DNA of 64,000 nucleotides from Enterobacter ludwigii (GTDB taxonomy: Bacteria; Pseudomonadota; Gammaproteobacteria; Enterobacterales; Enterobacteriaceae). The position numbers and the translations under genes were made by a program. Below the pieces are notes generated by a model. It was not told the DNA's origin. It ran no database searches and saw nothing but the letters and a program-made list of their open reading frames with translations. The stretch lies in assembly GCA_023023105.1 (NCBI GenBank), contig CP083824.1, forward strand, positions 2,294,001-2,358,000, written 5' to 3'. Shown in pieces: positions 2,480 through 50,770 of the stretch (its first letter is position 1; every line of letters starts with the position of its first letter).

Positions 2480-3280
2480 TTAGTCTTCAGTGGACTTGTT
2501 CGCCCTTCCCGATGGCTTTTTATGCCCATCATTGATGTTGTAACTGTCGGGTGTGCAGAAGCGCCCTTTTGGCATTTTCAGCTTATTATTTTCAAAATGT
2601 TTATACCAGCGCGAGGCTGTAGCCCAGATGGCTTCAGGAGTCGATGCACGAGTTTCCAGCCCTGGGGTGAGATCCATCCCCGCACCACTATATAAACTTT
2701 CCAGCATGCAGGCGGTAGGCAGCCCAATACCATCATTAATCGGCGTGGGAGTTCTTGCGACACCCCACGCAAAAGCCAGCCAACGGAGAATATGCTCAAG
2801 TGCGTCAATATAGTTGCGTCCCCTCTGAAAATGAGGAAGCGAATTCAGTACGTCTTCTTGAGCTTTTGGAAAAGCTATCAATGCGATATTTTTCCAGTGC
2901 TCAGAATCCTTAAAAATTGAGACCGGTGATTCCACAACGCCATTGCGCTCAGTGGCAAAAAAACCTCCCTGGGGTTGGAAAAGTGGAATATGCAGCACTT
3001 TCGATTTATCCACATTTTCAGCATTAGCGCACAGCAGCGCCGAGGTAGACCAATACGAAGGCAACATATCAAAGCGCAGCTGTGACTGGCCAGCACGAAT
3101 TCGCCACGACAACGTATCCGTACCACCAAGCAGCAAAATGTATGACTGCGCCAAAGGCTCTTTACCTTTAAGCGCATTAAAGGCACGTAACAACCACTCA
3201 AGGTTGTTCTCATTATCGGCGCGTTTTTGCTCAACCAGTTTAGGGTTCTTTTCTGACCCTGGGGCATAATTCATGACCAT
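2480..3280 (-). CDS. Hypothetical protein, third gene of the lipase-PhoD operon
   Basis: A 266-residue protein I do not recognise. It has no signal peptide or membrane helix and appears globular and cytoplasmic. Visible stretches include YILLLGGTDTLSWRIR and FDMLPSYWSTSALLC near the N-terminus, HILRWLAFAWGVARTP in the middle, and INDGIGLPTACMLESLYSGA followed by a polar lysine-rich tail. It begins 16 bp after the stop of the PhoD-like gene on the same strand, so it is almost certainly co-transcribed with it and the lipase. Possible roles are an accessory or chaperone protein, or an immunity partner for the two putative lipid-acting enzymes; this is inference from position only. A strong hairpin ends the operon. 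Confidence 0.7.
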   Translation of the reverse strand: MVMNYAPGSEKNPKLVEQKRADNENNLEWLLRAFNALKGKEPLAQSYILLLGGTDTLSWRIRAGQSQLRFDMLPSYWSTSALLCANAENVDKSKVLHIPLFQPQGGFFATERNGVVESPVSIFKDSEHWKNIALIAFPKAQEDVLNSLPHFQRGRNYIDALEHILRWLAFAWGVARTPTPINDGIGLPTACMLESLYSGAGMDLTPGLETRASTPEAIWATASRWYKHFENNKLKMPKGRFCTPDSYNINDGHKKPSGRANKSTED

Positions 3281-3296
3281 TATTATTCTCCAGAAG

Positions 3297-4787
3297 CTAA
3301 GTATTAACGTTGATAATCGGATACGTTCTCGTAGAAACGGCAGGAGACGCTGGATAAGTAATGGGATAATAATTCACCGTCATATTTACCCCTGAACCTG
3401 AACGAGTAAATTCGATAATTGCGACGTGATTGCCTCTCATTCCGTAGAACTTTTCAAACGGGCTGAACTGATTTTTTTCACCAACATATTTCGGAGGGGT
3501 ATCGGGATCGGAATGTCTTTTCCAGTCAGAATTTTTACCGAATAATCCCCCTACCGTGTGTTTGGCAATATTCGCCTGGTCAACTCCTGGCGTCACACAC
3601 AAACTGGTCGGCGAGCAGATGACCTCCGTCAGAGTGGTCCTTTTCGTCCGGGTATGGTTAGCTTGAGCCACTCTGTTCCAGTGCACATCTCCCGTCAGGA
3701 AGATCACCTGTACACCACACTCACCAAGCTTATCAATTGATTCCATAAGTTTCGCAAACTGTGTTGTATAGTTCGCGAGCTCAGCATCTCCCATTTTGTT
3801 TAATAACCACCCCGTTGGTTCGCAAAACAAGGCCTGCCCTGTGGCAAGTACACCGATAAGCGGCTTACCGTTAATTTGGTGATCCAACAGATTATCCCGC
3901 CATTTCTCGACGGCCTTCCACGCGCTGTCAGGCATAAGTCCAGTCGGGCTGGTAAAGTTTTTCTGTCGATAGCTTCGCGTGTCCAGGAACAACATACTGA
4001 GTGGCTCAATTTCCAAAAACGTCCAGGGTTGTTGGGAAGCAGGAGCGCCTCCCAGTTGAAAATCCTGTAACAGCTCTCTTGCGACAACTTCCCAATGATT
4101 AATCCCATTTGCACCTGGCTCCGGCCCCGTCCCCTCTTTCCAGACTTGTTCCCAGGGATAGTTATTCCAGAATTCGTGATCATCAGGCAGACATAATGTC
4201 GGCGCTTTGGTTAACGCTTTCTGTAACCCCCTTTGCCCGGTGAAATCTGACAACCAGTTTCGACGGTACTTGGCGGCAATGTTTTTTCGGAGTTCCTCAG
4301 CAGAGTCCGGCATGTGAAAGAAAGGCGGTTGATCCAGATAAACCTGATCACCCGCAAAAAGCGTCATATCCGGACGTACCGGTATCTGTTGCACAAAATC
4401 ACCCACTCCCACTGCATCGGTACCCGCGCAGTAACATGACATCAGCATAATTTTGAAGCTGTTACCCAAAAATGGCACTTTCGCAGGGAGCGACTTCACA
4501 GCCAGAAATCGCGATGTGCCATCTTGCGGGATGCTCACATTAAAGCAGTGCTCACTGTCATTTCCCTGGACACTGAACTCATAAATCCCCTGATAACTTA
4601 GCGGCCGCTTGTTCAGACAGTCATCATCACGAATCGGAGCCAGAGGCTGACTACTTATTTCCGGGCTAACCGCTTTTTCATTCAACGTAAAGTTCAATAT
4701 CGGGGCTGTCTTATACCCAAAAACACCCACCCACAGCTGGATGACACCAACATTACCTAACAACGGTCGAACCATCAGATATGGCAT
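3297..4787 (-). CDS. PhoD-like metallophosphoesterase
   Basis: A 496-residue protein with the metal-binding blocks of the PhoD/alkaline phosphatase D family: AGDQVYLDQPP, LPDDHEFWNNYPW, LFLDTRSYR, GVLATGQ and IFLTGDVHWNRVAQ, in the expected order. Characterised PhoD enzymes are phosphomono/diesterases, some acting on phospholipids or teichoic acids. Here there is no Tat or Sec signal, which differs from classical secreted PhoD. The start at 4787 is chosen over an upstream in-frame codon at 4850 because it has GAGGTG at the right distance and begins 11 bp after the lipase stop instead of inside that gene. It sits between a class-3 lipase and an unknown protein, suggesting a lipid-modifying module. 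Confidence 0.85.
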   Translation of the reverse strand: MPYLMVRPLLGNVGVIQLWVGVFGYKTAPILNFTLNEKAVSPEISSQPLAPIRDDDCLNKRPLSYQGIYEFSVQGNDSEHCFNVSIPQDGTSRFLAVKSLPAKVPFLGNSFKIMLMSCYCAGTDAVGVGDFVQQIPVRPDMTLFAGDQVYLDQPPFFHMPDSAEELRKNIAAKYRRNWLSDFTGQRGLQKALTKAPTLCLPDDHEFWNNYPWEQVWKEGTGPEPGANGINHWEVVARELLQDFQLGGAPASQQPWTFLEIEPLSMLFLDTRSYRQKNFTSPTGLMPDSAWKAVEKWRDNLLDHQINGKPLIGVLATGQALFCEPTGWLLNKMGDAELANYTTQFAKLMESIDKLGECGVQVIFLTGDVHWNRVAQANHTRTKRTTLTEVICSPTSLCVTPGVDQANIAKHTVGGLFGKNSDWKRHSDPDTPPKYVGEKNQFSPFEKFYGMRGNHVAIIEFTRSGSGVNMTVNYYPITYPASPAVSTRTYPIINVNT

Positions 4788-4798
4788 TCCACACCTCG

Positions 4799-5656
4799 TT
4801 ATGGCCAGAAGGCCCGGATGTAATTGTGAGGGGCGTGATCGGCGAGCCAACGCACCGGAACATGATTCAGGCGGTCGGCTTCATAGAGCGGAGCATAGAT
4901 TTTACGCCCTGCCGCCCGATCGCTTTTCAGTGCGCTAGCGGTTGGGTTATGCAGAAGCTTTCCATTGCAATCAAGGTAGAGAGCATTTCCGGCATGCTCA
5001 TAGCCCAGGAATGTCGGGGGGACGGTCGGCACCGCATCGCAGCAGTTGACCACCCGGATTACCTGCAAATGAGGCTGGCCCAGCAGGGAACTGACAAATG
5101 CATCGTCTCCGACTCTGGGGCAACCTATAGTTATTAACGTGTCCGGCTGTAACGCCATCGCCAGCAAAGTAGCTATTGCCCCACCTAGGCTGTGGCCACA
5201 AATCAGCAAATGGGTTCGCTTTGCTGTCATTTTCTTGAGCCAGTTTTCCGCCAGAGGCTGTAGGGCTTGGGCGCTTTTTTGAAATCCGGTATGTACTCGT
5301 CCATAGCGACAATATTCAGGCAATGTCTGAATATTGGTCAGAAAATCCTGGTAGTGATCAATCTGCGTTCCCCGAAAGGCAAGCACGCACAGGCCGCTGG
5401 CATGACAGGTGGCAAACCCGTAAGCATCACGAGCAACATCGTTCAACAGTTCGGGCGCGCCAAACCCCGCCGCTTTTAATATGCCCGTTAACTTCTCTTT
5501 TTCTCCAGCCCCCTTTTTTTCTGCCCTCAGATATGCCAGCCGTGATAATTCTGCTGCCAGCGCGATTTCATCTGGCCAGTCAGAATCACACAATAATGTT
5601 ATATCTCGTTCAGGATGATAAAGTGATTGATTATCTGCACTATAAGCAACAGGCAT
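4799..5656 (-). CDS. Class 3 (Rhizomucor-type) lipase family protein
   Basis: A 285-residue alpha/beta hydrolase of the lipase class 3 fold. It shows the AFRGTQ oxyanion strand, the nucleophile elbow LLICGHSLGGAIATLLA, a CDAVPTVPP segment carrying the probable catalytic Asp, and HAPHNYI carrying the probable catalytic His. No signal peptide is visible, so secretion, if any, would use another route such as the T6SS; that is speculative. It is first in a three-gene minus-strand operon with the PhoD-like enzyme and an unknown protein. Together the two hydrolases could attack acyl and phospho-head-group bonds of the same lipid. The flanking upstream region is AT-rich and divergent from the GH19 operon. 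Confidence 0.88.
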   Translation of the reverse strand: MPVAYSADNQSLYHPERDITLLCDSDWPDEIALAAELSRLAYLRAEKKGAGEKEKLTGILKAAGFGAPELLNDVARDAYGFATCHASGLCVLAFRGTQIDHYQDFLTNIQTLPEYCRYGRVHTGFQKSAQALQPLAENWLKKMTAKRTHLLICGHSLGGAIATLLAMALQPDTLITIGCPRVGDDAFVSSLLGQPHLQVIRVVNCCDAVPTVPPTFLGYEHAGNALYLDCNGKLLHNPTASALKSDRAAGRKIYAPLYEADRLNHVPVRWLADHAPHNYIRAFWP

Positions 5657-6209: not shown

Positions 6210-6644
6210 ATGTTCAGCCCTCTGGAAGATAATATTGCCGTATTTATGACAACATTGCGGATACGCAAGCCATTTGATTTTTGCAACCATCTTGATCCCT
6301 ACATGGATTCTGACGCGGACATTCAAAATGCAGGAAAGCAGCTGGAAGCGGCCATCAACAGCAGTGCAATCGCCGCTAGCATAATAGCACCAACCGCTAT
6401 GGTGGCGACGTCGCTGGCAGAAGAAGTACTCCAGGGCATTGCTCACGGCATGCAACAAAATAAAGACGCCCCCAATATGTTTGTACACGACAGTTGGCTT
6501 CAAGGGCTGACGCCGCCGTACGGGATTAATCAGTATAAATTACATGCCAGCGACAGTGCTGAAATCAGCCTGCGCGTCAGCCCAATCATGAAGCAATCTA
6601 AGCAGAATGTAGTGACTATTGCACATATTGAGGTGAATAAATGA
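6210..6644 (+). CDS. Hypothetical protein coupled to the GH19 gene
   Basis: A 144-residue protein of unknown family. The N-terminal third is polar (PFDFCNHLDPYMDSDADI), followed by an alanine-rich helical stretch (AAINSSAIAASIIAPTAMVATSLAEEVL) that could contact membrane or pack in a bundle. The C-terminal part resembles a beta-rich domain. There is no cleavable signal. TGAGGAAAC precedes the ATG with good spacing. The stop overlaps the start of the GH19 gene by ATGA, so the two are translationally coupled and probably work together. A partner or regulator of the muramidase-like protein is plausible but unproven. Confidence 0.7.
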   Translation: MFSPLEDNIAVFMTTLRIRKPFDFCNHLDPYMDSDADIQNAGKQLEAAINSSAIAASIIAPTAMVATSLAEEVLQGIAHGMQQNKDAPNMFVHDSWLQGLTPPYGINQYKLHASDSAEISLRVSPIMKQSKQNVVTIAHIEVNK

Positions 6645-7744
6645 GCGAATTAACATTAGGAACCGCGCTCTCTGCCTTGATTTTATGCGGTGTGGCGGGG
6701 ATGGTTGGACAAGGGATTCGGGCCGTTGTCGGGCTGAGAAAAGCAGGTTATCTGCAACTTGAAGCGGGCGACAGTAAGCAGAACTTCAGTGCCAGCTATT
6801 TAATGGTCACCCTGATGATCGGTTTTATTGCTGGCAGCCTTTCAGGGATAACAATGGGGTTGGACACATTTGCCGGAAAATTTCCTGCTGAATCGCTAAT
6901 GGCCGTGGTAGCCGCAGGATATGCCGGTGTCGATTTTATTGAGGGGAGTTTTAATTCTCGCATCAAATCTGCCGTATCCCCCTATATCGGTCCTGATGCC
7001 AAAAAAGCCGATGGTGGGGGATCGGTTGGCAGTATTGGCACAGGTGATGACACCCCACCCACGCCCGTCAGCCCTGCCTCACCCAAGCCAGCACCTGAGG
7101 CAGCCCCTGCCTATACGACGCTTCCACAATCGCCGCTTGCCAGCGCCTTAAAACAGGTAAGCCCACGCCTGAATATCGATATCTGGGCTCCGGCGCTTGG
7201 CAACGCATTTAATCACTACGAGATCCATTCCGAACGACGCATTGCCGCCGCTGTCGGGCAATTTATGGTGGAAGCAGGGGCAACGTTTTCCGAGCTTGAG
7301 GAAAATCTGCGATACACCACGCTGAACCAGTTAATAAAGATTTTTGGCCGTCACTTCAAAGACGACCAGGAAGCCGAACAGTTCTTACGTCAGCCAATGA
7401 AACTGGCAAACCGTGTCTATGCCAACCGACTGGGCAATGGCGATGAAGCCTCGGGAGACGGTTACCGCTATCGCGGGCGAGGTTTGATCCAGTTGACGGG
7501 AAAATCGGAATATCAGGAGTTTGCCAGATTTATCAACATGCCCGTTGAGGAAGCTGCCGAATGGTGTACAAGCCCTGAAGGAGCAGCCGCTTCAGGCTGC
7601 TGGTATCTGAAAACCCGCAACTGCCTGCCGCTCGCCGACAACTGGGATTTGGTGAAGTTAACAGAGCGAGTCAATGGCAAAGCCAAAGTGATCCTCGAAG
7701 ATCGAATCGCTTTCTCAAAGGCGATGCTGAAAGCCCTTTCATGA
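6641..7744 (+). CDS. Membrane-anchored GH19 (chitinase/lysozyme-like) glycoside hydrolase
   Basis: A 367-residue protein with two hydrophobic segments (about 6-25 and 52-72), a proline-rich linker (130-165) and a C-terminal GH19 domain (about 175-367). The domain shows QFMVEAGATFSELEENLRY, where E211 is the expected catalytic acid, and the signature YRYRGRGLIQLTGKSEYQEF, also seen in phage-type GH19 endolysins. GH19 enzymes cut chitin or the peptidoglycan glycan backbone; in a Gram-negative host peptidoglycan is likelier. The double membrane anchor is unusual for GH19 proteins, which are normally soluble. It is coupled by ATGA to the preceding 144-residue gene; 228 bp separate it from the NACHT gene, so co-transcription with that is possible but not shown. 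Confidence 0.85.
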   Translation: MSELTLGTALSALILCGVAGMVGQGIRAVVGLRKAGYLQLEAGDSKQNFSASYLMVTLMIGFIAGSLSGITMGLDTFAGKFPAESLMAVVAAGYAGVDFIEGSFNSRIKSAVSPYIGPDAKKADGGGSVGSIGTGDDTPPTPVSPASPKPAPEAAPAYTTLPQSPLASALKQVSPRLNIDIWAPALGNAFNHYEIHSERRIAAAVGQFMVEAGATFSELEENLRYTTLNQLIKIFGRHFKDDQEAEQFLRQPMKLANRVYANRLGNGDEASGDGYRYRGRGLIQLTGKSEYQEFARFINMPVEEAAEWCTSPEGAAASGCWYLKTRNCLPLADNWDLVKLTERVNGKAKVILEDRIAFSKAMLKALS

Positions 7745-7972: not shown

Positions 7973-10822
7973 ATGGGCATTCATAATCGGCACAATTTAC
8001 TGCTGTATTTACTGCTTATTCTACAATATATAATCTTTTCCTCTAATGCTTGGAGCGAAACCATCCCTGCCGATGAGACAGATGTACTCTTTGTAGGTTA
8101 TGACAACAGTTCCCCTTTCTTTTTGGTTACGCAGGGTATTGCCCGCAAAGGCTCAGGTGATTTATTAAATATCGAGAACCCAGATAAGTTACCTGTTGAG
8201 CATGTCCGTGAAGACGGTTCCGGAGGTGCGTGGTTCACATTAGGTGGATTAAACCTTTACCATATTGACAGTAAAGGACAAACGATCAGGAGTGACTTAA
8301 CTACTTTACCTGTAGAAAATCCTGTTATTGAAGTCATCGCCTCAGAAAATTCAGCTACTGCGATTCAGTTGTGCGGAAGCATAACAAAGACAGATGCCAC
8401 CGGGAAAATAATTAAGAAAATTAATGTATTAGATGAGGGGGGATGTCAAAAAGTAGTTACTGCTGCCACCAGTACTGGTGAAAACACGTTATGGTTAAGC
8501 CTTAACGATGGGGAGATTTTTCAGGTAAACATCGATACCGGCGTAAAACTCAGTTCACAGTCACAGATTGATGCTGATGATTCTCCCATGACAATCACTG
8601 GTAGCGAGAATGGCACTGTAATAATGCAAACTGAAAAAGGTCTGCTTTTCTATGCGGCCTACCATGACGGTAGCATTAATATACAAAAAATGCCTTTTCC
8701 GCGAAAATTAGATTATGTGGCCAATCTATTTACTTTGGGAAGCCATGTAATTGTCGGATTTAAAAGCGGCGCTCTCGGGATTACAGACTCTTCGCAGATA
8801 AAAATTATTTCAAACCCGCAAAATATGCTAAGTGATAGTACAACTGGCACGTCTTTTTATGCTGCATTAATTAATGCTAAAAATAATTATGCCGTACTCG
8901 CAAACACTCGCGGGGAAATTTTCCAGTTATATAACAGCATTGTTAAAAAGATCGCCAGCGTGCAGTCACCAGTCATTGATGTAATACGTAGCACTGATGA
9001 TGGCGCCTGGATAATATGTCAGGATCAGGTGTATAAAGTCTTCCGTGAAAATATCTTTGAAGTTCCTGATTTATCAGACTCATCTAATCCCGTCGTACGC
9101 CTTTTTGAGGACTCCCATGGATTGTGGGCCGCACATTTTTACGGGGGGGCATCATTTTATTCAGAACCAGCGCCAGAGTTAGTGGCAGCCCTGAATAGTC
9201 GAAAAATATCTAACGGTAGGTTTTCTGCAAGCATGCCATCCGTAAGCCCTCTTGTAGCCTTTGCTGTACTGAATGATGGTAGTAAACAAAGTATTGTGAA
9301 TGCTCAGATTACAGATAAAGAACTAAAATTCAGTATCCCTCAGGATATGGATACTCCACAACTTACTGAATTACGGGCTTATTCATCAACGGGATTGCTC
9401 TTCCCCTGGCGCGAGCTATTACAGGCACCGTTAACATTGGAAATGGAAGACAGCGTAGTCTACACCATTGCCAAATATACCAAATATACGGCCGTAGCAC
9501 TCGCTATTGCCGAGTCATTGCTGCTTATCATGCTATTCCTGCGTTACCGAACATCAGCCACTACCCGTGCTATCATCTGGCAAAATCCCATGCTACGGAA
9601 AATTTTAACATTGGGCATACTGGATTTACTTCTTAATGTTCCGGGTGTCACACGATTCCTGATAAAACCTGTCGTCCAGCAAATTCATAAAAAACGCGCA
9701 GCTGTTACATTTTATTTCAATGGGATTAATGCCGAAGCACTCCTGGACAATGGCTCCTGGTCTGAGTCAAAGAATATCGCCGAAATGCTCGAAAAACCTT
9801 CCGGCTACACATTACTTACTGGCGTGTCAGGCTCAGGTAAAAGCGTGTATGTGAAGAGTCTTGTGCATCGAATGCAATCTCCGGTGATAATGATTGGTGC
9901 CCGTCAATGTGAAGAAGGTGTTATCGCTGCTGTTTATGCCAGATTACCGGAGGAAGCATCGGACTTTAAAATCATCGAAAGAGCACTGGCAACCGGTGCA
10001 CTTAGTATCATCATTGATGGCTATAATGAAGGCAGTCCTGTCGCGAGAATGCGGATCCAAGATTTTTGCCTGCGATACACCACAGCAAACGTCATTATAA
10101 CGTCACAGCCAGGTATTGTTCCTGAGTTGCAGGATTGCAAACAGTTACGCATTACACCATTGACTATGGACAGTGCCGAGAAGTATTTAACGGAAGCATT
10201 ACTCCACGATAAAATACAGACAACCTCGTTAGAAGAGATACGGAATATTATTCATGGCCTTCCTGCCAATTTTAAATTTGGTGAAGGATTGACGCCGTTC
10301 GATCTTGAAATTATCAAACAGCTATTTAAGCATAATGTTGCAGTGAGCAATGAAAATATTATATCTCAGTTTATGGAGAACATCTCACTACGTTATAAAG
10401 GTAAATTTTATCGAGAACTGCCACTCACCAGATTATCTGAACTGGCCTACAATGAGCGGAAAAACAATAGCTCATGTATTTCAGAGTCAGAATTTACAAC
10501 GGATGAGCTTACGTTTTTTCGGGATGAGCGATTAATCATCACCGGAGGGGGAATAACAGGCAATATTTATGCATTCAGACATGAGCGGTTGCAGGACTGG
10601 TTTGTGGCAAATTTCTTCAGGGCAAGACAAGACCTCTGGAAAGAAGCTGCTGCCGTCCCAGTAATGGCACAGGCTTTTGTCATGCTGATTGCGCTCATAC
10701 CTCGTGAGCGCTGGCAGATGGTCATTCATGTTGTCGCTGAAGTGGGGGCCGTGACGGGAGATCACACCATCATCGATCGGGTTATGATTCATCTTCATGT
10801 TATGGATGGTAAATATGTCTGA
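7973..10822 (+). CDS. Periplasmic propeller - transmembrane - NACHT/STAND NTPase
   Basis: A 949-residue three-part protein. Residues 1-28 form a signal peptide. About 35-410 consist of repeated beta strands with WFTLGG-, LWLSLNDGEIF- and GAWIICQDQVY-type motifs, as in periplasmic beta-propeller sensor domains, followed by an Ig-like segment near 420-490. One membrane helix lies at about 505-525. The cytoplasmic half has a Walker A (GVSGSGKS, G617-S624), a Walker B (IIIDGYNEG, D682), a NACHT-like ITSQPG strand and a C-terminal FRHERLQDWFVANF motif typical of STAND NTPases. The N-terminal half resembles propeller-type hybrid two-component sensors with the kinase replaced by a NACHT. Its stop overlaps the next gene. 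Function is unknown; sensing of an envelope signal is inferred. Confidence 0.82.
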   Translation: MGIHNRHNLLLYLLLILQYIIFSSNAWSETIPADETDVLFVGYDNSSPFFLVTQGIARKGSGDLLNIENPDKLPVEHVREDGSGGAWFTLGGLNLYHIDSKGQTIRSDLTTLPVENPVIEVIASENSATAIQLCGSITKTDATGKIIKKINVLDEGGCQKVVTAATSTGENTLWLSLNDGEIFQVNIDTGVKLSSQSQIDADDSPMTITGSENGTVIMQTEKGLLFYAAYHDGSINIQKMPFPRKLDYVANLFTLGSHVIVGFKSGALGITDSSQIKIISNPQNMLSDSTTGTSFYAALINAKNNYAVLANTRGEIFQLYNSIVKKIASVQSPVIDVIRSTDDGAWIICQDQVYKVFRENIFEVPDLSDSSNPVVRLFEDSHGLWAAHFYGGASFYSEPAPELVAALNSRKISNGRFSASMPSVSPLVAFAVLNDGSKQSIVNAQITDKELKFSIPQDMDTPQLTELRAYSSTGLLFPWRELLQAPLTLEMEDSVVYTIAKYTKYTAVALAIAESLLLIMLFLRYRTSATTRAIIWQNPMLRKILTLGILDLLLNVPGVTRFLIKPVVQQIHKKRAAVTFYFNGINAEALLDNGSWSESKNIAEMLEKPSGYTLLTGVSGSGKSVYVKSLVHRMQSPVIMIGARQCEEGVIAAVYARLPEEASDFKIIERALATGALSIIIDGYNEGSPVARMRIQDFCLRYTTANVIITSQPGIVPELQDCKQLRITPLTMDSAEKYLTEALLHDKIQTTSLEEIRNIIHGLPANFKFGEGLTPFDLEIIKQLFKHNVAVSNENIISQFMENISLRYKGKFYRELPLTRLSELAYNERKNNSSCISESEFTTDELTFFRDERLIITGGGITGNIYAFRHERLQDWFVANFFRARQDLWKEAAAVPVMAQAFVMLIALIPRERWQMVIHVVAEVGAVTGDHTIIDRVMIHLHVMDGKYV

Positions 10823-12458
10823 ACTCCTACGGCCTCGGCTTTTTATTTGCGCGCTGGCTATACTGTCGACGATGGTTTTTGCTGAGAAAGGTTTAGTGTC
10901 CCCGAATAATGCTAATTACATATATACAGCAAACCTTGAACGGTACGTGCATTCAGTCCCTCTCGATTTGACCTATAATTCACGTTCGCTGCTGAGATCA
11001 TCATTTGGTCTGGGCTGGTGCAGTGATATCGGCACTACACTTACTCTACAGGAAAATGGACTGGCAGTTAATATATGTGGCGGGGGAGTTAAAATAATAC
11101 TCAAGTCTCCTTCACACGAATTTAAATACCGACAATTTATAGAGCATCATAAAGAAGAGTTTGAGTCAAATATAGCTGGATATAATGAACCATCCAGTGA
11201 CCGCAGCCAACTTATTGCTGACTACCTTATCACTCAACATAATTATAATTGGTATGATGAATTCAATATCGAGCAGTATTCAAATGGGCCCAAAACCTTT
11301 CTGAGAAAATCCGGAAGTGGTGTGATTTCACAAATCGATTCTATAAGCTATAGATTTGACCGCTTCGGTAGGTTACTCAAAGAGAAACATACTCAGTTAT
11401 CTGACGATATCTCAGTTTATTATTTTGGAGGTAGCATCATCGGAATGAAGCGAGGAAACACAAGGCCTGTCATTAACATAGATCAGGATCAATTTGGTTT
11501 TATTACCCAATTGTTTGCAAAGGGAAAAGCCGTTCAGATAGCTTACTGGCCCCCCCCCTCCACTGAAAATTACTCAACCCTATCAAAATTAGAAATGGCC
11601 GGCATTACCATCAGTTTTCAGTACTCGGACTTATTTAATATGATCCGCAAAACTGAAACGGGCGAGCCAACAGAGGAGATGAGTTATGATGAAAAAAATG
11701 ACTGGGCGCTGACGCATAAATTTAGCAACGGTTGTAATTATAAAAACATATACACATTTGATACGCCGCATAGTGATATGCATTATTTCACAGAAGTTAT
11801 AGAGTCATGTAAAGATTCAGGTAAGCAGAGTTATTATTTCGAATTCAGGTATGAAGCTCCTAAGTCCGATGCGTTATATACCATTGCACGCACAGGTCAG
11901 AGAACCATTTCTTACGAATCAGGCACAAACCTTTTTCAATATTATTCCGATGATAGTGTTACTGAGCAACGCATTCTGGTACCTGTAAGCGGAAACTTCA
12001 TCACAACCACACCAAAGGGAGTTGTACAATATAAAACCGACCCCAGGTGTAACAGCGTCGCTGACAGAACATCCACGGATTTTCTGGCTATTCAATACAC
12101 GAACAATTGCAAGCCGCTAAGAGTTAGATGGCAAAACCATGGGAATTACCTGTTCGGATATGAAGGGCATGACGAACTCTCAACCATTACAGATCTGAGT
12201 CGACATCAGTCATACCGGCTCATTCAGGGTGCCAACGGCCAAATCCATGCCGTAGAAAAAAAAGGAAGCTGGACAAGGCTGGTCGGAAATCAGTCAAATA
12301 ATACGTCTGGTAAAGAAGATTTACAACGTCTCGTAGAGGTGTTAAAAGCGGTGAAAATGAATAGCATTGCCGGAATGGTCTTCCCCGAGAAAAATGATCC
12401 CTTCGCTGTCTGGTGTGAGTGCGACATTCCATTATTTCCACCGCAGCAATTACACTAG
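10815..12458 (+). CDS. Secreted Rhs/YD-repeat-like protein without a recognisable toxin tip
   Basis: About 547 residues from ATG 10815, which has GGATGGT upstream and overlaps the NACHT gene stop by 8 bases; an in-frame ATG at 10797 is the alternative. Residues 1-23 form a signal peptide ending VFA. The segment VPLDLTYNSRS, then SSFGLGWCSD, matches the N-terminal signature of Rhs/DUF6531-type shells. YD-like motifs recur, such as YRFDRFGRLLKEKH, DQFGFITQLFAKGK and GYEGHDELSTITDLSRH. It is far shorter than typical Rhs proteins, lacks the DPxGL cleavage motif, and ends in a short tail with no toxin domain I can identify. Translational coupling suggests it is the partner, ligand or effector of the membrane NACHT protein. 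Confidence 0.78.
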   Translation: MSELLRPRLFICALAILSTMVFAEKGLVSPNNANYIYTANLERYVHSVPLDLTYNSRSLLRSSFGLGWCSDIGTTLTLQENGLAVNICGGGVKIILKSPSHEFKYRQFIEHHKEEFESNIAGYNEPSSDRSQLIADYLITQHNYNWYDEFNIEQYSNGPKTFLRKSGSGVISQIDSISYRFDRFGRLLKEKHTQLSDDISVYYFGGSIIGMKRGNTRPVINIDQDQFGFITQLFAKGKAVQIAYWPPPSTENYSTLSKLEMAGITISFQYSDLFNMIRKTETGEPTEEMSYDEKNDWALTHKFSNGCNYKNIYTFDTPHSDMHYFTEVIESCKDSGKQSYYFEFRYEAPKSDALYTIARTGQRTISYESGTNLFQYYSDDSVTEQRILVPVSGNFITTTPKGVVQYKTDPRCNSVADRTSTDFLAIQYTNNCKPLRVRWQNHGNYLFGYEGHDELSTITDLSRHQSYRLIQGANGQIHAVEKKGSWTRLVGNQSNNTSGKEDLQRLVEVLKAVKMNSIAGMVFPEKNDPFAVWCECDIPLFPPQQLH

Positions 12459-13505: not shown

Positions 13506-14554
13506 CAGCAGCCAAATATTAATCTTCGCTTGTCATGCACTCGACTTCAGTTCATTTGCGGGAACAGTATTGAAAGGCAGCGGCCCTAACTGCATCACGC
13601 TTCCCGCCTGTTCACCTAGCTGTTGCCACTGGCGTTTCATCGCACTCAGCCTCAGTGCCAGATACCCCTTTGAACTCTGCTGCAGGTCGGTCAGCGTTTG
13701 CTGGTAGCTATCAGCAACGGTCTGCCATCCGTTGACCAGCAGCTTAGCGGAATCAATGGCAGACTGAGAAAGTCTTTCACTGGCCGTCAACTGGTTATAA
13801 ACCGTGTCAAAGACAGCCACCTCCAATTCAAGCCCGACGAGATTGGTCAACGTTGTGCTGTACTCTTTTTGCGCTTTGACAATATCGGCAGAGCTTATGG
13901 TCATCGCCAGCGTTCCGCCCGCGACCAGGGTAATACCCGCAGCCAGAAGCGTTTGTGTTGCCCCACCGGTTTCGATAATTGTTGTGGCCGCAATGACAAT
14001 CATGCCGATCCCTATAATGTCGCTCACCGCTCCCGCCGAAATCTGCACAATATCTGCATCCATCTGTTTATTCAGATCGTTTAGCTTCTGCCGGAGTGCC
14101 GATATTTCCCCTTTATCACCGGTAATTTGCGTCTGCACGGTTTCTTTAGCCGCTTTAAATGTGCTCTGACTGCTGTTGATCCCATTCACATAAACCTGGA
14201 CGTTATCGACAAACACCCCCGTGGAAGTGACGTTTTTCTGAGCAAGAGAAAGCAGCTGCTGGATGCCCTGCTGGATATAAGGAAGCTGGCTTTTATCCCC
14301 CATGTCATATTTTTGTGCCGCCGGAAGAAGTGCATCGACATAAGCCCCCACCTGATTCGAAAAATTACGCACATTCACCAGAGAAGAGATAGCCGCCGGA
14401 TTAATCGAGGACAACCATTCCTGCGCCTGATCGCGCGCAATAGCCTGCTGTGCAGGAAGGTCAGGTAAAATATCTAAATGAATGTTGGGTTGACATAATA
14501 CAGTGCTCGCATAAGTCTGTTGAGCAATCGAAGAAGCACCGATGCCCTGAATAC

Positions 14555-15610
14555 GGCTTTGTTGAATAAATAAGATTTCGTGCGAACGACCCTGTAGCTG
14601 GCTGGATTTTCAGGCAATACGCACGCTTTCTGGCATCCCAGCCTTTGTCATCCTGTTCAACGCACGCACCATGGCCATAGCTTCCGCTACCTGACCATCG
14701 TAGTCACGCAGCGTCAGTGAATCTCCCAACAACTGCTTCATTCTGTACATTGCCGTTTCCGCTATCGAGCGACGGTTATATTCCGTTGTCCATTTCCACC
14801 GTGCATTGCTTCCGCTCAGCCGCTGATTAGCAACGGCACGGTTGCGGTCTGCGTACTCACCGGGCCAGTAACCTGCTCCTTTTCGGGGAGGAATAAGCGC
14901 GCTGATTTTTTTGCGGCGCAGTTCATCGTGACAGAGCCGGGTATCGTAAGCCCCGTCTGCCGCGGCTGCCCTGATTTTTCTGTGAGTCTGCCGGATAAGG
15001 CCCGGGAAGGCTTCTGAGTCCGTGACGTTATTCAGCGACAGGTCTGCACAGACAACTTCATGTGTGTTGCTGTCAACAGCAAGATGCAACTTTCGCCAGA
15101 TACGACGGCGCTCTTTGCCGTGCTTTCTGACTTTCCATTCGCCTTCACCAAAGACCTTCAGCCCGGTGGAATCAATCACCAGGTGTGCGATTTCACCCCG
15201 GGTGGACGTTTTGAAACTGACATTAACCGACTTTGCCCGCTTACTGACACTGGTGTAATCCGGGCAGCGCAACGGAACGTTCATCAGGGCAAAAATGGAA
15301 TCAATAAAACCCTGCGCAGCCCGCAGGGTCAGCCGGAATACGCGTTTAATCACCAGAACGGTGGTGATGGCGAGATCAGAATAGCGCTGGGGCCTTCCTC
15401 GTGATGAAGGCGTTGCCGACTCATACCAGGCCTGAATCGCCTCATCATCCAGCCAGAAAGTGAGGGAGCCACGGTTGATGAGAGCTTTGTTGTAGGTGGA
15501 CCAGTTGGTGATTCTGAACTTTTGCTTTGCCACGGAATGGTCTGTGTTGTCGGGAGGATGCGTGATCTGATCCTTCAACTCAGCAAAAGTTCGATTTATT
15601 CAACAAAGCC
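14555..15610 (-). mobile_element. IS903-type insertion sequence (IS5 family), complete
   Basis: A 1056-bp element bounded by near-perfect terminal inverted repeats (GGCTTTGTTGAATAAAT at the left, its complement ending at 15610). It is flanked by a perfect 9-bp duplication cctgaatac (14546-14554 and 15611-15619), the size expected for IS903. It holds one intact transposase gene. The clean target duplication and undamaged host sequence on both sides indicate a simple and probably recent insertion. Confidence 0.95.
14610..15578 (-). CDS. IS903-type (IS5 family) DDE transposase
   Basis: A 322-residue transposase filling the element between the terminal repeats. It matches the IS5/IS903 group: an N-terminal RITNWSTYNKALINRGSL region, TLRAAQGFIDSIFALM, and a DDE catalytic domain. 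The first Asp is in HLVIDSTGLKVFGEGEWKV, the second in AAADGAYDTR, and the Glu near RRSIAETAMYRMKQLLGD. It looks intact and may be active. It is the only gene of the element and reads in the same direction as the interrupted toxin gene. Confidence 0.95.
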   Translation of the reverse strand: MKDQITHPPDNTDHSVAKQKFRITNWSTYNKALINRGSLTFWLDDEAIQAWYESATPSSRGRPQRYSDLAITTVLVIKRVFRLTLRAAQGFIDSIFALMNVPLRCPDYTSVSKRAKSVNVSFKTSTRGEIAHLVIDSTGLKVFGEGEWKVRKHGKERRRIWRKLHLAVDSNTHEVVCADLSLNNVTDSEAFPGLIRQTHRKIRAAAADGAYDTRLCHDELRRKKISALIPPRKGAGYWPGEYADRNRAVANQRLSGSNARWKWTTEYNRRSIAETAMYRMKQLLGDSLTLRDYDGQVAEAMAMVRALNRMTKAGMPESVRIA

Positions 15611-15724: not shown

Positions 15725-16612
15725 TTACTGCAATTGCTCAACGGTGCGCATCACTTCCTGCCAGTTCGCCTGCACGGCATTAACGGAGACTATAAGAAAA
15801 TCCGCAGTCACCTGTTGTTGAGTGACCTCCGACAGCTCGGCCGTCACGGTTTGCCAACCATATTGAAGAGATTGTGTCAGGCCACACAAAATAGCGGTTC
15901 CTTTGGTCAATGCGTTCAGTGCATCACTGGTGGCACCAAGTTGTCCTATTTCCTGATAAAGCATTCCCGTTTCCTGTTGCGCCTGAGCAATTGCCCGCTC
16001 CGTGCTTTGCACATAGCCTGTCAATTCCATAATCGCGGCGCCAATCCCAAGAGTAAAAATACCGATGATAATTTCCATCCTCTTTTTACTTTCAAGCTCA
16101 GCATTCAGCGCATTCAGCTGAGCGTTAAGAGCCTCTAACCTTGCCTGATCGGCAGCTAATAACTGTTGTGCCCTTTGCTGATCGGCTAGCAAGTTCCTTG
16201 AGTCCGTCGTAATGTCATTATTAAAGGAAATAATAACCTTATTGAAATCATTCAGAGAGGCGGATAGCGGCGCGCTGTCGGCGAGTAACTGCTTAATCTG
16301 CCCCTGAGCTTTTGTGAGATATTCCTGTCCGTCAGGACCATTTAATTCAGAACGGATGTTGGCAACCGTAGAATCCAGCTCACCTCCAAACTTGATAACC
16401 TCGGAATACAACGAATCCATTTTGACCACAATGTCAGACAGATAATAATTTGCATGATTGCGGACGGAAAAGATATTTTCATTCAGATCGGAGATCTGCG
16501 GATCGTTAATGGGCGGAAGCTGTTCTAATTGTTGTGCGACCTGCATCATCTGTTGACGCACATTTTGTTGAGCCGTTAATGCCTGAGTAAAGCTGACTTT
16601 CAATGCTGGCAT
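15725..16612 (-). CDS. Alpha-pore-forming toxin component (HBL/NHE-like), intact
   Basis: About 295 residues from ATG 16612, which has TAAGG upstream; a GTG at 16630 would add six residues. The protein is almost entirely helical, with long Q- and N-rich coiled-coil-like stretches (LLADQQRAQQLLAADQARLE, ALNAQLNALNAELESKK). One short hydrophobic segment (IIIGIFTLGIGAAIMEL) lies near two thirds of its length. This arrangement fits a component of a ClyA/HBL-type multi-component pore with a smaller membrane-contacting head than its neighbour. It has no signal peptide, as is usual for Gram-negative members of this superfamily. It lies between the 380-residue component and the IS-interrupted one on the same strand. 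Which of the A, B or C roles it plays cannot be decided by eye. Confidence 0.75.
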   Translation of the reverse strand: MPALKVSFTQALTAQQNVRQQMMQVAQQLEQLPPINDPQISDLNENIFSVRNHANYYLSDIVVKMDSLYSEVIKFGGELDSTVANIRSELNGPDGQEYLTKAQGQIKQLLADSAPLSASLNDFNKVIISFNNDITTDSRNLLADQQRAQQLLAADQARLEALNAQLNALNAELESKKRMEIIIGIFTLGIGAAIMELTGYVQSTERAIAQAQQETGMLYQEIGQLGATSDALNALTKGTAILCGLTQSLQYGWQTVTAELSEVTQQQVTADFLIVSVNAVQANWQEVMRTVEQLQ

Positions 16613-16723
16613 ACTCTGAACCTTAGACACGGGTCACTTATTGGCATCATCGTGAAACGATGCGTCCGGTTTGTCTGCTAAAACAATCAGACCCTCACGG
16701 GCCTGATTGATGATTGATGAACG

Positions 16724-17866
16724 CTATGCAGCAGCCAGCCGTGCAAATGTCGCCGTTGGGTTAGGCAACAGGATCCCACTGCTGGTGACCGATGCGTTGC
16801 TGACCGGTAAAGAACCATAATCCAATAGCTTACGGGCATGATTGCCAACATCATCCCAGTCCGCTTTCGCCGCATTGAGTTGCGCGATCAGGAAATAGCC
16901 TAAATCTGGGGTCGCGCTGGTCAGCGCCGACTGGAAGACAATAAAGTCCTGTTCAAGCGTCTGCCAACCTGCCAGTAAAGAACCCGCGGCCTGAACCGCA
17001 GCGGATGCCTGGCCCGAAAGATTCTGAACAATCGTATTCACGTTTTTGGTGGCAGAATACTGTTGTTGTAGTTTTGTTTTGGTCGTAATGGCCGTGCTGA
17101 GCGCGCTGGTTTGCTTGGCATAGTCAACCCCCCCGGCAATGGCAACACCAGCACCGGCCCCGACGACCACCAATCCACCGACAATCAGTGCGGTACTGAC
17201 GCCTGCGGTCGCAATTTCCGCCAGTACCCCCACGGCAATCATTAATCCTCCTACCACTGCGGCGGTTGAACCCGCTGCAATCATAGTTAAGTCCTTACTC
17301 ATGGCGGAATTAATAGCGTCGATTTGTTTTCCCAGAGCGGCAATTTGTCCGTCTTTACCGGCTAATGCCGCTTCTGCCGTAGTAAAATCACTGGCGAAAT
17401 TGCGGGCATCTTCGGCAAGCGTTGTCTGGAAACCGCCCACTGAATTAACCACGGTATGCGTAGCGGTTTGTTTTTGAGCGACCAGCGCCTGAAGTTGCTG
17501 AACACCCAGTTTAAAAGTATTAATTGATGCTGTGTCCGAAGGGTTTTGCTGTATTTTTACCGCCAGCTTAACCAAAGGATCATAATAGGAATCAAAATTG
17601 TTAGAGAAGCTTACAATATCCGTATTGGTTGAGATCATTTGCGGCTGTATGACATCACGCCAGGATGTGGCATGGTCTCTGGCCTTTGCCTGATGTTCCG
17701 GTAGATGAGGTAATATATCCGGCAGGGAGAGATCGGCCTGCGTTAAAATGGTGCCGACATAGTTTTGAATGATCACGGCTGCTGTGGTAGAGGCATCAGC
17801 GCTCGCTTTCATGTTATTACTGTTAATCGATGGATTGGTGCCAGCCTGTAGAATATGATTTAGCAT
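16724..17866 (-). CDS. Alpha-pore-forming toxin component with large hydrophobic hairpin
   Basis: A 380-residue protein, helical throughout, with a strongly hydrophobic double segment at about residues 200-260 (GSTAAVVGGLMIAVGVLA, then ALIVGGLVVVGAGAGVAIAGG). This is the membrane-inserting head expected of the B-type subunit in tripartite HBL/NHE/Smh/Ahl pores. The N-terminal half has amphipathic helices with DLSLPDILPHLPEHQAKARD, a motif echoed as DILPDLPAQQAIARD in the interrupted paralogue. AAAGGG precedes the ATG. In known systems such subunits lyse eukaryotic cells only when all components are present. The third component here is broken by an IS, so the operon may be inactive unless another copy exists. 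Confidence 0.8.
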   Translation of the reverse strand: MLNHILQAGTNPSINSNNMKASADASTTAAVIIQNYVGTILTQADLSLPDILPHLPEHQAKARDHATSWRDVIQPQMISTNTDIVSFSNNFDSYYDPLVKLAVKIQQNPSDTASINTFKLGVQQLQALVAQKQTATHTVVNSVGGFQTTLAEDARNFASDFTTAEAALAGKDGQIAALGKQIDAINSAMSKDLTMIAAGSTAAVVGGLMIAVGVLAEIATAGVSTALIVGGLVVVGAGAGVAIAGGVDYAKQTSALSTAITTKTKLQQQYSATKNVNTIVQNLSGQASAAVQAAGSLLAGWQTLEQDFIVFQSALTSATPDLGYFLIAQLNAAKADWDDVGNHARKLLDYGSLPVSNASVTSSGILLPNPTATFARLAAA

Positions 17867-18882: not shown

Positions 18883-20187
18883 TTATCCCAGACGCGATAT
18901 CCTTGACCTCGCCTCGTCAAGATGTGCGCGTAACGCCGCCACGCATGGCGCAAAGCTGGCAGAAAAACGGTTGCAATTGCTGACCAAAGCATAAAAGCGC
19001 TCAGCCAGTTCAAGTGACTCATGCCAGATTTCTCCCACAATCGCATCAAGGAGCATTGCCGGACGAAGTGTATTCAACATTCCGCCCCCCGACTTCGGCG
19101 CAAATCCCATGGGCAGCATGTCATAGGCAGGCGCAAGATGATAAGGACGCCCATGGGCGCTAATAAACGACAGATTCCCGTGGTGCATGTCGGTATTGCC
19201 GATCAACATGCCAAATGCCCAAAGCCGCGCCGTTCCTGCGATGGCATCAGGATGAACACATCCCTGCTTAACCAACTCGTTAACCAATACGGGCCAGGCC
19301 TCTCTTGCTCGGCCGACAAATTCCGCCTCCAGAGCCCGTAACGAAAAAAGACCTTTACGGCCAAGTGGTCCTACACGATCAAACCGTGGGATTTCAAGGA
19401 AACGCTGTCCACCAAAATCAAATACCTCTGTTTCAACATCAAGCACTTTTAACGCAAGATGTTCTGCCAGTAGAAGATCTCGCCAGCGTTCGCTTATGGG
19501 GTTATCGTCGGGAGCCGTGAACTTCACGATGACATGACCACGTTCTGTATAGGTGCAAAATTTTGGTTGCTCACCGCCAGCGGAGGAACCCGGCACCTCT
19601 CCGGAGCTAACGGCCAGAGCCAACGACGGATATGCCGTTGCCCGCTCCACTGCAACAGGCTGCGGCATATCCACAAAATGGTTTCGCGCTTGCTCTCCTA
19701 TTAATACGTTCCCTACCGCATCGTGCCCATGAGCCAGTAAGGCCCTTATAACATCGGAGTCTGTCCAGTTTTCAGGATTTGCCGGCAGGCCAAGTTCAGT
19801 TGAAAATCGGGATGCATACGCCCGGCCAAGATATCCCTGAGGCCGCATATCAAAGAGCCACCACGGCAGCCCATCGCTATGAAGACAGATGTTATCCGCT
19901 TGCTCCATCACAAAACCATCGGGATAAACCGGTATGAGCTGCCCCAGCGGCTTGACCTTGCCCTCTTCGGTGATGCGGTAAATAGGGGCCGAACTGAACC
20001 CACGAAGCGCATCGCGTAGTACGTAATGAATAGATGGACCAGAGCCAATACGCACCACTTCATCACCAAGCGCTTTAATCGCTCTCGAAGCCGTAGGCTG
20101 ACTAATTCCCATATTATCAGTAAGTTGCCTTACCGATATTGGGCCTTTCCTCAGCAACTGACGTAACGTTTCGGATCGATTTGTCAT
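18883..20187 (-). CDS. yjjJ: HipA-family kinase-like protein with N-terminal HTH (YjjJ type)
   Basis: A 434-residue protein combining an N-terminal winged helix (SVRQLTDNMGISQPTASRAI, about 17-40) with a HipA-like Ser/Thr kinase fold. Kinase landmarks are SSAGGEQPKFCTY (nucleotide loop), the catalytic loop IGNTDMHHGNLSF and the metal-binding LAPAYDMLPMGF. E. coli YjjJ has the same size and layout and is regarded as a HipA-like toxin that carries its own DNA-binding domain instead of a separate HipB. No hipB-like gene is adjacent, consistent with this. It lies between the toxin operon and silA, is not coupled to either, and ends in a clear terminator. Confidence 0.85.
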   Translation of the reverse strand: MTNRSETLRQLLRKGPISVRQLTDNMGISQPTASRAIKALGDEVVRIGSGPSIHYVLRDALRGFSSAPIYRITEEGKVKPLGQLIPVYPDGFVMEQADNICLHSDGLPWWLFDMRPQGYLGRAYASRFSTELGLPANPENWTDSDVIRALLAHGHDAVGNVLIGEQARNHFVDMPQPVAVERATAYPSLALAVSSGEVPGSSAGGEQPKFCTYTERGHVIVKFTAPDDNPISERWRDLLLAEHLALKVLDVETEVFDFGGQRFLEIPRFDRVGPLGRKGLFSLRALEAEFVGRAREAWPVLVNELVKQGCVHPDAIAGTARLWAFGMLIGNTDMHHGNLSFISAHGRPYHLAPAYDMLPMGFAPKSGGGMLNTLRPAMLLDAIVGEIWHESLELAERFYALVSNCNRFSASFAPCVAALRAHLDEARSRISRLG

Positions 20188-20231
20188 GGTGTTGAATCGC
20201 TTTATGAATAGGTTATTGAATAGCTAATTTA

Positions 20232-23200: not shown

Positions 23201-23408
23201 TGAGCGGATACGTGACCTGATTTTCAACAATCTGCGGGGCCTGGCCGGGATAGCTGGTTTTGATAATCACCTGAACGTCAGACAGATCGGGCAAGGCGTC
23301 GACCGGGGTATTGATGATGGTCCAGGTACCCCACACGCTGAGGAACAGCGCCCCCATCATCACCAGGAAACGGTTGGCGACTGACCGCCGGATAATCCAT
23401 TCAATCAT
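20232..23408 (-). CDS. silA: Silver/copper efflux RND transporter SilA (CusA family)
   Basis: A 1058-residue inner-membrane RND pump of the heavy-metal (HME) class, exporting Ag+/Cu+ with SilB and SilC. ATG 23408 follows AAGGAGACGATG at good spacing; an adjacent ATG at 23411 is possible, and the longer upstream extension overlaps silB and is rejected. The protein begins [20 protein letters not shown] and contains [20 protein letters not shown], the family's conserved membrane helix 4 region. From memory it agrees with SilA at most positions and is closer to SilA than to E. coli CusA. It is last in the silCFBA operon, 10 bp after silB. No silP or ORF105 follows, unlike plasmid sil clusters. 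Confidence 0.92.
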
Positions 23409-23418
23409 CATCGTCTCC

Positions 23419-24669: not shown

Positions 24670-24680
24670 GCCATTCCTCT

Positions 24681-25022
24681 CTATTTAATGCTCTTAAGTA
24701 AAGAGATATTGCCCTGCTGAACAAATGAAAAATCAACATGACGACCTGGTTTTAAGGCATTGATGCTCTCGTCAGCATTAGTAAAAGTGAAACTCATGGT
24801 CATTGCAGGCCAGCCGATTGCAGGTATAGCTTCGTGAGAAATCGTGACTTTTTTATTCGTGAGGTCAACGTCTTTCACGACACCCGTGGCGTTGATGATT
24901 TGCTCTGCGCCGGCATCACTGGCGACACTCATCTCCTCATGCTGATGAACTTCAGCCTGAAGGCTGGCAGAGAACATCACAGAGATCGCACCGAATACAA
25001 CGGCTTTAAGAGAATTACGCAT
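24681..25022 (-). CDS. silF: Periplasmic Ag+/Cu+ chaperone SilF (CusF family)
   Basis: A 113-residue periplasmic metallochaperone that delivers Cu+/Ag+ to SilB. It has a signal peptide (1-23, ending LQAEV) and the CusF OB-fold signature VTISHEAIPAIGWPAMTMSF, giving the His, Trp and Met residues of the metal site. The family is about 110 residues, so it is full length. Spacing is 28 bp from silC and 11 bp to silB, consistent with one operon. Confidence 0.93.
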   Translation of the reverse strand: MRNSLKAVVFGAISVMFSASLQAEVHQHEEMSVASDAGAEQIINATGVVKDVDLTNKKVTISHEAIPAIGWPAMTMSFTFTNADESINALKPGRHVDFSFVQQGNISLLKSIK

Positions 25023-25050
25023 TTTTATTTTCCTGTTTAATTAAATAAGT

Positions 25051-26436: not shown

Positions 26437-26510
26437 AACGGTTCAAATGAAATCCAGAGTATTTTTAGGGCTACTCTACTGAACGCATCCTGTTTGACGG
26501 GTGACAGGAT

Positions 26511-26528
26511 AATGACAATGTTGTCATT
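26511..26528. promoter_or_regulatory. SilR/CusR binding box between silC and silR
   Basis: aatgacaatgttgtcatt is a perfect palindrome matching the CusR/PcoR box consensus. It sits in the 162-bp divergent intergenic region and can serve both silCFBA and silRS. A slightly weaker copy precedes silE at 12821. Confidence 0.85.
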
Positions 26529-26598
26529 TTTACCGTAAGTCATTGTTAACGGTCGCAGGCTCACTAGAATGTCATCAGCAGTCAGTCAGGGGAGCAAG

Positions 26599-50604: not shown

Positions 50605-50770
50605 AAGCGTCCTTTTACAGTCACATGACCGATCTTTCCGCAATGGCAAATTTGCATTAAGTTCAAAGCAGGTGGCAAACTATACAACCAAAAACCTTAT
50701 AATTTTAATGGCTATTTACATAAGTATGCTTTAGCGCAAATTTTGACATTTCACTCAAGGAGGGATTCGG

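Follow-up and report, generated by a model that had tools for sequence, protein, structure and literature searches.

A candidate two-gene envelope receptor with a cytoplasmic NACHT NTPase behind a periplasmic propeller in Enterobacter ludwigii

Can a NACHT NTPase be switched from the far side of the cytoplasmic membrane? The question is raised by two overlapping plus-strand genes in a 64,000-nucleotide stretch of Enterobacter ludwigii contig CP083824.1 (positions 2,294,001 to 2,358,000; hereafter the window). One encodes a chain with a predicted periplasmic propeller, a membrane helix and a NACHT domain; the other encodes a smaller, secreted Rhs-like protein. In the literature covered, described bacterial NACHT proteins mostly sense within the cell. 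Taken in aggregate, the data suggest a two-gene envelope receptor in which periplasmic sensing, together with the Rhs-like partner, switches the cytoplasmic NACHT domain, a reading given a probability of about 0.5. The analyses that follow support its layout and topology, the conservation of its switch residues, the exchangeability of its sensors and the recurrence of the partner.

Topology and switch of the large protein

Both open reading frames (ORFs) are intact. The NACHT gene occupies 7973-10822, its stop codon being 10820-10822, and the Rhs-like gene runs from 10797 or 10815 to 12458; the window's ORF list gives 949 and 553 amino acids, respectively. For the second gene, ATG 10815 yields 547 residues and the in-frame ATG 10797 upstream yields 553. 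The start is most likely ATG 10815, as in P0004, so that the gene overlaps the end of the NACHT gene, stop codon included, by 8 bases. The original prediction, made from the DNA letters, had described a single 949-residue chain bearing Walker A, Walker B and C-terminal motifs, and a second gene beginning inside its last codons; each of these elements was found where it had been placed.

A hydropathy scan of the large protein reveals three hydrophobic segments: residues 9-27 (1.72, signal-like), 505-523 (2.19) and 892-910 (2.10). The first bears out the signal peptide proposed earlier, and a corresponding N-terminal segment is present in two relatives described below, metagenome P0003 and Pseudomonas P0127. 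The second is flanked asymmetrically, with 9 K/R and 1 D/E in the 56 residues that follow it and 3 K/R and 4 D/E in the 34 that precede it. By the positive-inside rule, this places the NACHT domain in the cytoplasm. The structural model positions a propeller ahead of this helix, and the charges fit, in agreement with the proposal of a propeller-like, periplasmic N-terminal half. The first Foldseek match of the propeller is the BT4663 type sensor. In Pfam, the sensor matches Reg_prop at E 0.11, below the cut-off, and has no Y_Y_Y match; a sequence search with the window sensor alone matched no chain in the PDB. The adjoining beta domain (428-490) is low-confidence in the model; read by eye, it may be immunoglobulin-like.

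Behind the membrane helix, the model contains a NACHT fold (nucleotide-binding, helical and winged-helix parts, as in NLRs) that aligns with NLRC4, a protein also matched by profile search. Thus, when the structural model was used to ask whether the C-terminal half might be something other than NACHT, a NACHT fold was obtained. The motifs are Walker A (GVSGSGKS), Walker B (IIIDGYNE) and FRHERLQDWFVANF (868-881), with the chain ending 68 residues past the last of these. Members of the NACHT clade have, besides Walker A, a Walker B in which the Asp is followed by a small residue (DGxNE). In all 13 of 13 diverse members, the Walker A residues, the I, D, G, N and E of Walker B, and the R-H of FRH are invariant, as expected of a working switch. 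The Pfam NACHT score of the window protein lies below gathering (18.0 versus 26.7 bits); the best of the 13 aligned members reaches 25.8 bits, and one relative (L043) passes at 27.9. Fold and profile therefore carry the assignment: the NACHT identity originally proposed stands by the modelled fold and the NLRC4 match and falls short by Pfam.

The juxtamembrane stretch between helix and NACHT domain has the highest mean majority-residue fraction (0.735) among eight regions of a 28-row alignment. Within it, N538 is invariant, and the motif pattern is found in 13/13 and in 28/28 alignment rows. Through this conserved element, the activation of an NLR-type switch from outside could be put to a direct test.

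Table 1. Features of the two genes, in window coordinates
Feature	Position	Strand	Support
Signal-peptide-like N-terminus, residues 1-27 (...SNAWS-ETIP)	7973..8053	+	Hydrophobic segment 9-27; low-confidence helix 6-23 in model
Predicted periplasmic beta-propeller, residues 38-398	8084..9166	+	About eight blades, strand count by eye
Small beta domain, residues 428-490	9254..9442	+	Model strands 428-488, block pLDDT (predicted local distance difference test) 51-76
Membrane helix, residues 494-525	9452..9547	+	Hydropathy 2.19 at 505-523; model helix 494-525; positive-inside pattern
Juxtamembrane coupling region, residues 526-582, with WQNPMLRK motif	9548..9718	+	Conservation
Cytoplasmic NACHT NTPase, residues 583-949	9719..10819	+	Walker A 617-624, Walker B 679-686, FRH 868-870
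Secreted Rhs/YD-like partner, 547 residues (553 from ATG 10797)	10815..12458	+	Conserved C-terminal CxC...PLFPPQ tail

The Rhs-like partner and the recurrence of the pair

The pair recurs. A protein search returned three full-length homologues of the NACHT protein, at 99% (Raoultella ornithinolytica), 92% and 52% identity. The last of these, P0003, and a homologue of the partner, P0005 (47%), each lie on a metagenome contig of 15377 bases, very probably the same one. A more distant pair is found in Pseudomonas fluorescens PS918, where the gene for a 1035-residue membrane NACHT protein (P0127) is followed after a 6-base gap by that for a 566-residue secreted Rhs protein (P0128). The two genes are thus found together in both a metagenome and Pseudomonas, which answers the objection that they might not be conserved as a pair; with full-length homologues at hand as well, chance or broken genes are ruled out. 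Between the window and P0003, the propeller is 41% identical and three NACHT sub-regions are 59-71% identical, indicating that the sensor changes faster than the NACHT domain. The Pseudomonas sensor has no Pfam match, and its PDB matches, to a pilus assembly protein, are no better than E 0.11; its repeated G-x-W motifs can be read as propeller-like.

The second protein had been called secreted and Rhs/YD-like, a label that is firm in the Pseudomonas relative and weak for the window protein alone. P0128 exceeds the Pfam cut-offs for DUF6531 (41 versus 24.1 bits) and RHS_repeat (35.4 versus 22). The window protein matches DUF6531 below cut-off (E 0.058; 14.2 versus 24.1 bits), and in metagenome P0005 both DUF6531 and RHS are below cut-off. 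Kinship between the window and Pseudomonas proteins is detected by pairwise BLASTP (E 2e-8) and by hhalign of the window Rhs family against P0128 (probability 96, E 3e-9, 316 columns). Both carry a C-terminal CxC followed by F-x-P-Q. When eight stretches of the window and metagenome versions are compared, this tail is conserved best (68%); against the Pseudomonas version it reaches 23% and does not stand out. A Foldseek search with the Rhs model yields 21 matches at E<=0.001, all to Rhs or teneurin-type YD proteins, with TM-scores <=0.2; the model is poor, and this list serves as support only. No RHS-associated core or toxin was matched in the window protein by Pfam or NCBIfam at E<=1, and a small unrecognised domain is possible given the poor model. 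Of the roles considered for this protein (ligand, trigger, effector), the last is the least likely, because no toxin domain is recognised.

In the genome draws made, the full-length type was recovered in 1 of 398 genomes (Pseudomonas genus draw) and 1 of 369 (class draw), the same starting genome both times; three and nine additional matches, respectively, cover short parts of the query only. E. coli genomes gave no match by megablast, nor did an initial scan of genome contigs with the window protein alone. The pair is real: it is rare in these draws, it recurs, and the structure of its main parts is clear.

The G+C content (guanine plus cytosine) is 0.43-0.41 across 8001-12000, lower than the 0.46-0.59 of the window's remaining 2-kb steps, as would fit a foreign origin. 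Searches of 50,697 phage records gave no match at E<=0.01. Among 72,556 plasmids, the window NACHT protein has one module-level match, P0127 and P0003 four each, and P0128 five partial Rhs matches; the window Rhs-like protein has none. Pattern-based scans of viral contigs, which are of limited reach, found no relative. On these phage, plasmid and viral-contig searches, a phage, plasmid or virus origin was set aside.

The membrane-NACHT module in other genomes

Does the module occur with other sensors? The Calothrix plasmid protein CAL7716_105820 (P0006) is homologous across membrane helix, juxtamembrane region and NACHT domain (26% over 453 residues, pairwise E 2e-29), and carries HEAT repeats in front of this module. 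Used as a query, the Calothrix module matched 816 of 7991 scored proteins; among the best 120 of the 816, every named organism is a cyanobacterium. In a one-genome-per-species collection, 152 stretches encode relatives. Family counts use the best 80 of these, which are mostly cyanobacterial and also derive from Myxococcota, Methylococcaceae, Competibacteraceae, Larkinella and Pseudomonas. By phylum, the module is present in cyanobacteria, Myxococcota, Bacteroidota and Pseudomonadota.

N-termini were assigned by blastp against three HEAT and three non-HEAT references, after two of the 80 (L021, L051) were dropped for want of a usable start. HEAT-like N-termini are present in 70 of the 78 usable ORFs; one of the rest is the Pseudomonas reference itself, two are too short and five have none, two of which (L005, L062) carry HEAT by Pfam. 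The topology is shared as well. Among 59 complete relatives with more than 250 residues in front of the module, 57 have an N-terminal hydrophobic segment (L036 and L050 do not), 57 a membrane helix at the junction (L064 and L066 lack one at the tested place) and 55 both; 32 of 1180 internal control stretches pass the first, N-terminal threshold. The conserved core thus carries HEAT in most members, in rhizobia a large region that Pfam does not match, the propeller type in Raoultella and the metagenome, and an unclassified sensor in Pseudomonas. These comparisons support a sensor that appears exchangeable on one conserved core. They also divide the earlier claim that the layout is undescribed: the membrane-NACHT module is widespread, mostly behind HEAT, and what remains rare is this sensor half with an Rhs-like gene.

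Further parts follow the NACHT domain in some relatives. A second NTPase region is present in cyanobacterial members (nSTAND1, above cut-off in L064 and below in L043, L067 and L080), and rhizobial members have an unnamed tail (L097:7480-8037) with a common S-A-R-[DE]-L-Y motif near its end. Neither the rhizobial tail nor the 168-residue rhizobial partner described below has a PDB match better than E 0.4. These cytoplasmic additions fit inward signalling. Draws made with the module alone gave 3/398 (phylum draw of the Pseudomonas genome, one short), 6/146 (phylum draw of Archangium, one short), 1/198 (phylum draw of Larkinella, the starting genome itself) and 3/298 (family draw of G922, itself included). 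Weak STAND-like matches in Pseudomonas (L085-L087) had no readable ORF. Genes for trypsin-like peptidases lie upstream of the module in Calothrix (L001:2161-3540, with TPR repeats) and Mesorhizobium (L097:8-2122).

Abutting secreted genes are concentrated at particular loci. Enough downstream DNA was available at 81 loci, 20 of which have an ORF of at least 100 residues starting between -30 and +80 of the stop. In 8 of these 20 the start is strongly hydrophobic: the window, L007, L097, L098, L099, L112 and two further loci, myxobacterial L048 and L113. A signal-like abutting gene is therefore found at 6/6 non-HEAT loci and 2/75 others, a difference tempered by a partly circular grouping (L099 and L112 lay outside the HEAT scan, and L112 was grouped by its partner) and by a signal cut (12-residue mean 1.7) chosen by eye. 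L117, L120 and L121 are outside this count, the latter two having no recognised module ORF. The module protein of Mesorhizobium and of two R. leguminosarum plasmids is 1404-1439 residues long, with no HEAT match in the two scanned, and its gene is overlapped by 4 bases by one for a 166-168-residue protein with a signal-like start, different from the Rhs-like protein; the L112 partner resembles it by eye. Partner genes accompany non-HEAT types mainly, not only. At L064, L066 and L080, a further ORF has its start about 15 bases ahead of the end of the module gene, and the Archangium genome has three module matches.

Around the pair, the window holds genes of varied kinds. Upstream at 6210-7744 (+) lie a 144-residue ORF and a 367-residue protein with a hydrophobic N-terminus and an endolysin-like C-terminus (PHROG endolysin, E 1.9e-53; PWe1 endolysin, E 3e-30). 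On the opposite strand to the pair, 2480-5656 (-) encodes Lipase_3, a PhoD-like phosphatase and a 266-residue protein without assignment. Downstream, 13533-14414, 15725-16630 and 16724-17866 (-) are three genes related to Bacillus HBL/Nhe-type alpha-pore-forming proteins, the first two separated by an ORF read as transposase-like (14610-15578). Also named by reading are a HipA-like gene, metal-type RND efflux genes and a two-component regulator (18883-28726), and, at 45764-50649 (-), a VgrG-like gene with a large lipase-like gene after it, possibly of type VI secretion.

A model for the pair, its rivals and known systems

The model that we infer adds ligand binding, propeller-Rhs contact, oligomerisation, an output and any role in defence. 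The Rhs-like protein would act in the periplasm or at the surface as a ligand-binding partner of the propeller; that it is the direct periplasmic partner of the receptor is judged more likely than not. An envelope cue, such as a particle of a competitor or phage, or envelope damage, would alter the propeller-Rhs complex, and the stalk, membrane helix and juxtamembrane helices would relay this change inward. The autoinhibited NACHT domain, probably ADP-bound, would then be released, and nucleotide exchange would lead to assembly of several copies, as such exchange permits multi-copy assembly in other STAND NTPases. The direction of signalling, outside-in, is among the likelier elements of this scheme. 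With no soluble effector domain recognised by Pfam in the 949-residue protein, and with so short a chain end behind FRHERLQDWFVANF, the output may most simply lie in the clustered membrane helices themselves (leak or arrest), or else in recruitment of an unlinked protein. Membrane disturbance as the output is rather unlikely; if true, it would explain a NACHT protein without an effector domain. An anti-phage or anti-competitor role is plausible at slightly less than even odds.

Several further points weigh against this reading. The main model has a pTM (predicted TM-score) of 0.49, its N-terminal half was built on four alignment rows, and the Rhs model, from a three-row alignment, reaches a pLDDT of 42.5. 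Only one membrane helix had been foreseen; that at 505-523 stands, and the segment at 892-910, overlooked at the time, sits in the NACHT half. It is present in P0003 and absent from P0006. Because the model shows a helix here within the part that aligns with NLRC4, it is read as probably buried rather than as a membrane pass. No sequence relationship between the Pseudomonas sensor and the window propeller is detected (hhalign probability 0.5 of 100). When the NTPase part is placed in a tree, the branch of the window type is very long, and the tree neither establishes nor rejects that the Rhs-linked type arose once (approximately unbiased test, p-AU 0.54; very long branches). A Rhs profile search in nine module genomes matched in Pseudomonas alone; the other eight have no match at E<=0.001, so the module does not need a Rhs-like gene. 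At L099, the annotated start lacks the N-terminal hydrophobic segment, and in Archangium an incomplete ORF with a signal-like start (L117:3-4159) shares a 4-base overlap with the end of a module gene. PADLOC, finally, returns for the window a weak P-loop-type match only (mad8, E 0.041), and for the 13 members four models, each in one member (best 5.5e-5), again P-loop-type.

Could the same layout serve a purpose other than reception? If the propeller held the Rhs-like partner while the NTPase drove its folding, release or surface display, the NACHT protein would be an energy-using assembly or export factor. The gene neighbourhood and overlap, the partner's signal peptide and the different secreted protein at the equivalent position in rhizobia are all consistent with this. 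However, the NTPase is of the NLR-like NACHT type, which in described cases is a switch rather than a motor, and 73 of the 75 other loci lack an abutting signal-like gene, so that the module occurs without one; an assembly or export function is unlikely. Somewhat less doubtful, though still improbable, is a regulatory receptor in which the NACHT domain binds or recruits an unlinked cytoplasmic protein and alters expression or physiology without killing, akin to the logic of hybrid two-component sensors with propellers. The propeller's resemblance to sensors of the BT4663 type, which belong to propeller hybrid two-component systems, favours such a function, and STAND regulators exist, MalT among them. 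Against it, Pfam at E<=1 recognises no DNA-binding, kinase or histidine kinase domain in either protein, and no regulator lies directly beside the pair among the window ORFs.

The modest size of the secreted partner invites another explanation. As a short YD-type protein with a signal peptide and no recognised toxin, it could be a toxin-less shell that mimics or binds the Rhs effectors of rivals, guarded by the propeller-NACHT protein in the manner of the integrated or guarded decoys of plant NLRs. The VgrG-like and lipase-like genes elsewhere in the window, named by reading, are compatible with this; nothing ties the pair to Rhs attack, however, and such a decoy is quite improbable. Least credible is that an ordinary orphan NACHT gene merely adjoins a Rhs fragment. 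Such fragments are common in enterobacterial genomes, yet here both genes are intact and overlapping and recur together at about 50% identity and in Pseudomonas, by which accidental proximity is largely refuted.

The two-gene receptor, if true, would have consequences beyond this locus. A periplasmic sensor joined to NACHT would permit a reaction while phage DNA or an effector is still outside the cell, and would provide a second route, beside histidine kinases, for reading a propeller. A broader and more tentative proposal is an inverted NLR class, in which a cytoplasmic NACHT domain is driven, through one conserved membrane-juxtamembrane element, by exchangeable periplasmic sensors (propeller, HEAT or other), some of them accompanied by an overlapping gene for a secreted partner of their own. 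Bacteria would then have gained immune-type sensing outside the cytoplasm.

How does the pair compare with known systems? An open full-text literature search, with the main subscription bNACHT and Avs papers outside its reach, listed no paper whose title or abstract deals with a NACHT domain that follows a periplasmic propeller or has a Rhs-like protein as partner. Nor was there, among the papers listed, one describing the cyanobacterial and myxobacterial proteins of signal peptide, HEAT, membrane helix and NACHT (Calothrix P0006), which are database entries. These share the module of the window protein and differ by a HEAT sensor and by rarely having an abutting secreted gene. The propeller hybrid two-component sensors (BT4663, structure 4a2m) share a periplasmic propeller, beta stalk and membrane helix, here modelled, but end in a histidine kinase where the window protein has a NACHT NTPase. 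With Rhs/YD polymorphic toxins, the likeness lies in DUF6531 and RHS repeats (P0128) and in the Rhs/teneurin fold matches of a weak model; the window protein differs in being about half the length of solved Rhs shells, in its signal peptide and in having no recognised toxin part.

The bNACHT anti-phage proteins, for example bNACHT25, have the same NLR-type NACHT switch in a layout of N-terminal effector, central NACHT and C-terminal sensor, and those of clade 14 have short C-terminal domains and no readily discernible effector (PMC12169576); the window protein departs from this layout with an N-terminal periplasmic sensor, membrane helix, C-terminal NACHT and secreted partner gene. Nuclease-protease pairs are the subject of PMC12799240. 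In Thiohalocapsa, one NACHT locus diversified by a diversity-generating retroelement has a predicted periplasmic target, with lectin-type variable domains and another layout (PMC10907252). The Bdellovibrio hit-locus Bd0108/Bd0109 offers a precedent for the partner: a periplasmic YD-repeat protein takes part in envelope signalling and binds what the gene next to it encodes, there a small secreted protein linked to pili, with no NTPase in the passages covered (PMC3818213). Predicted oyster TRADD-N proteins combine an extracellular domain with a membrane helix, and some also contain a STAND NTPase (PMC8195603), so that the idea of a membrane STAND receptor is already in print for animals; bacterial EACC1/EACC2 are other membrane-associated systems (PMC7159879). 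Both resemble the window protein in a predicted extracellular domain, membrane helix and intracellular parts that can include a STAND NTPase, and are distinguished by DED, TRADD-N, caspase and EACC domains, with no propeller-NACHT chain or Rhs partner in the passages covered. Among these systems, the pair looks like an undescribed envelope alarm, and is a variant within NACHT/STAND systems rather than a wholly separate kind.

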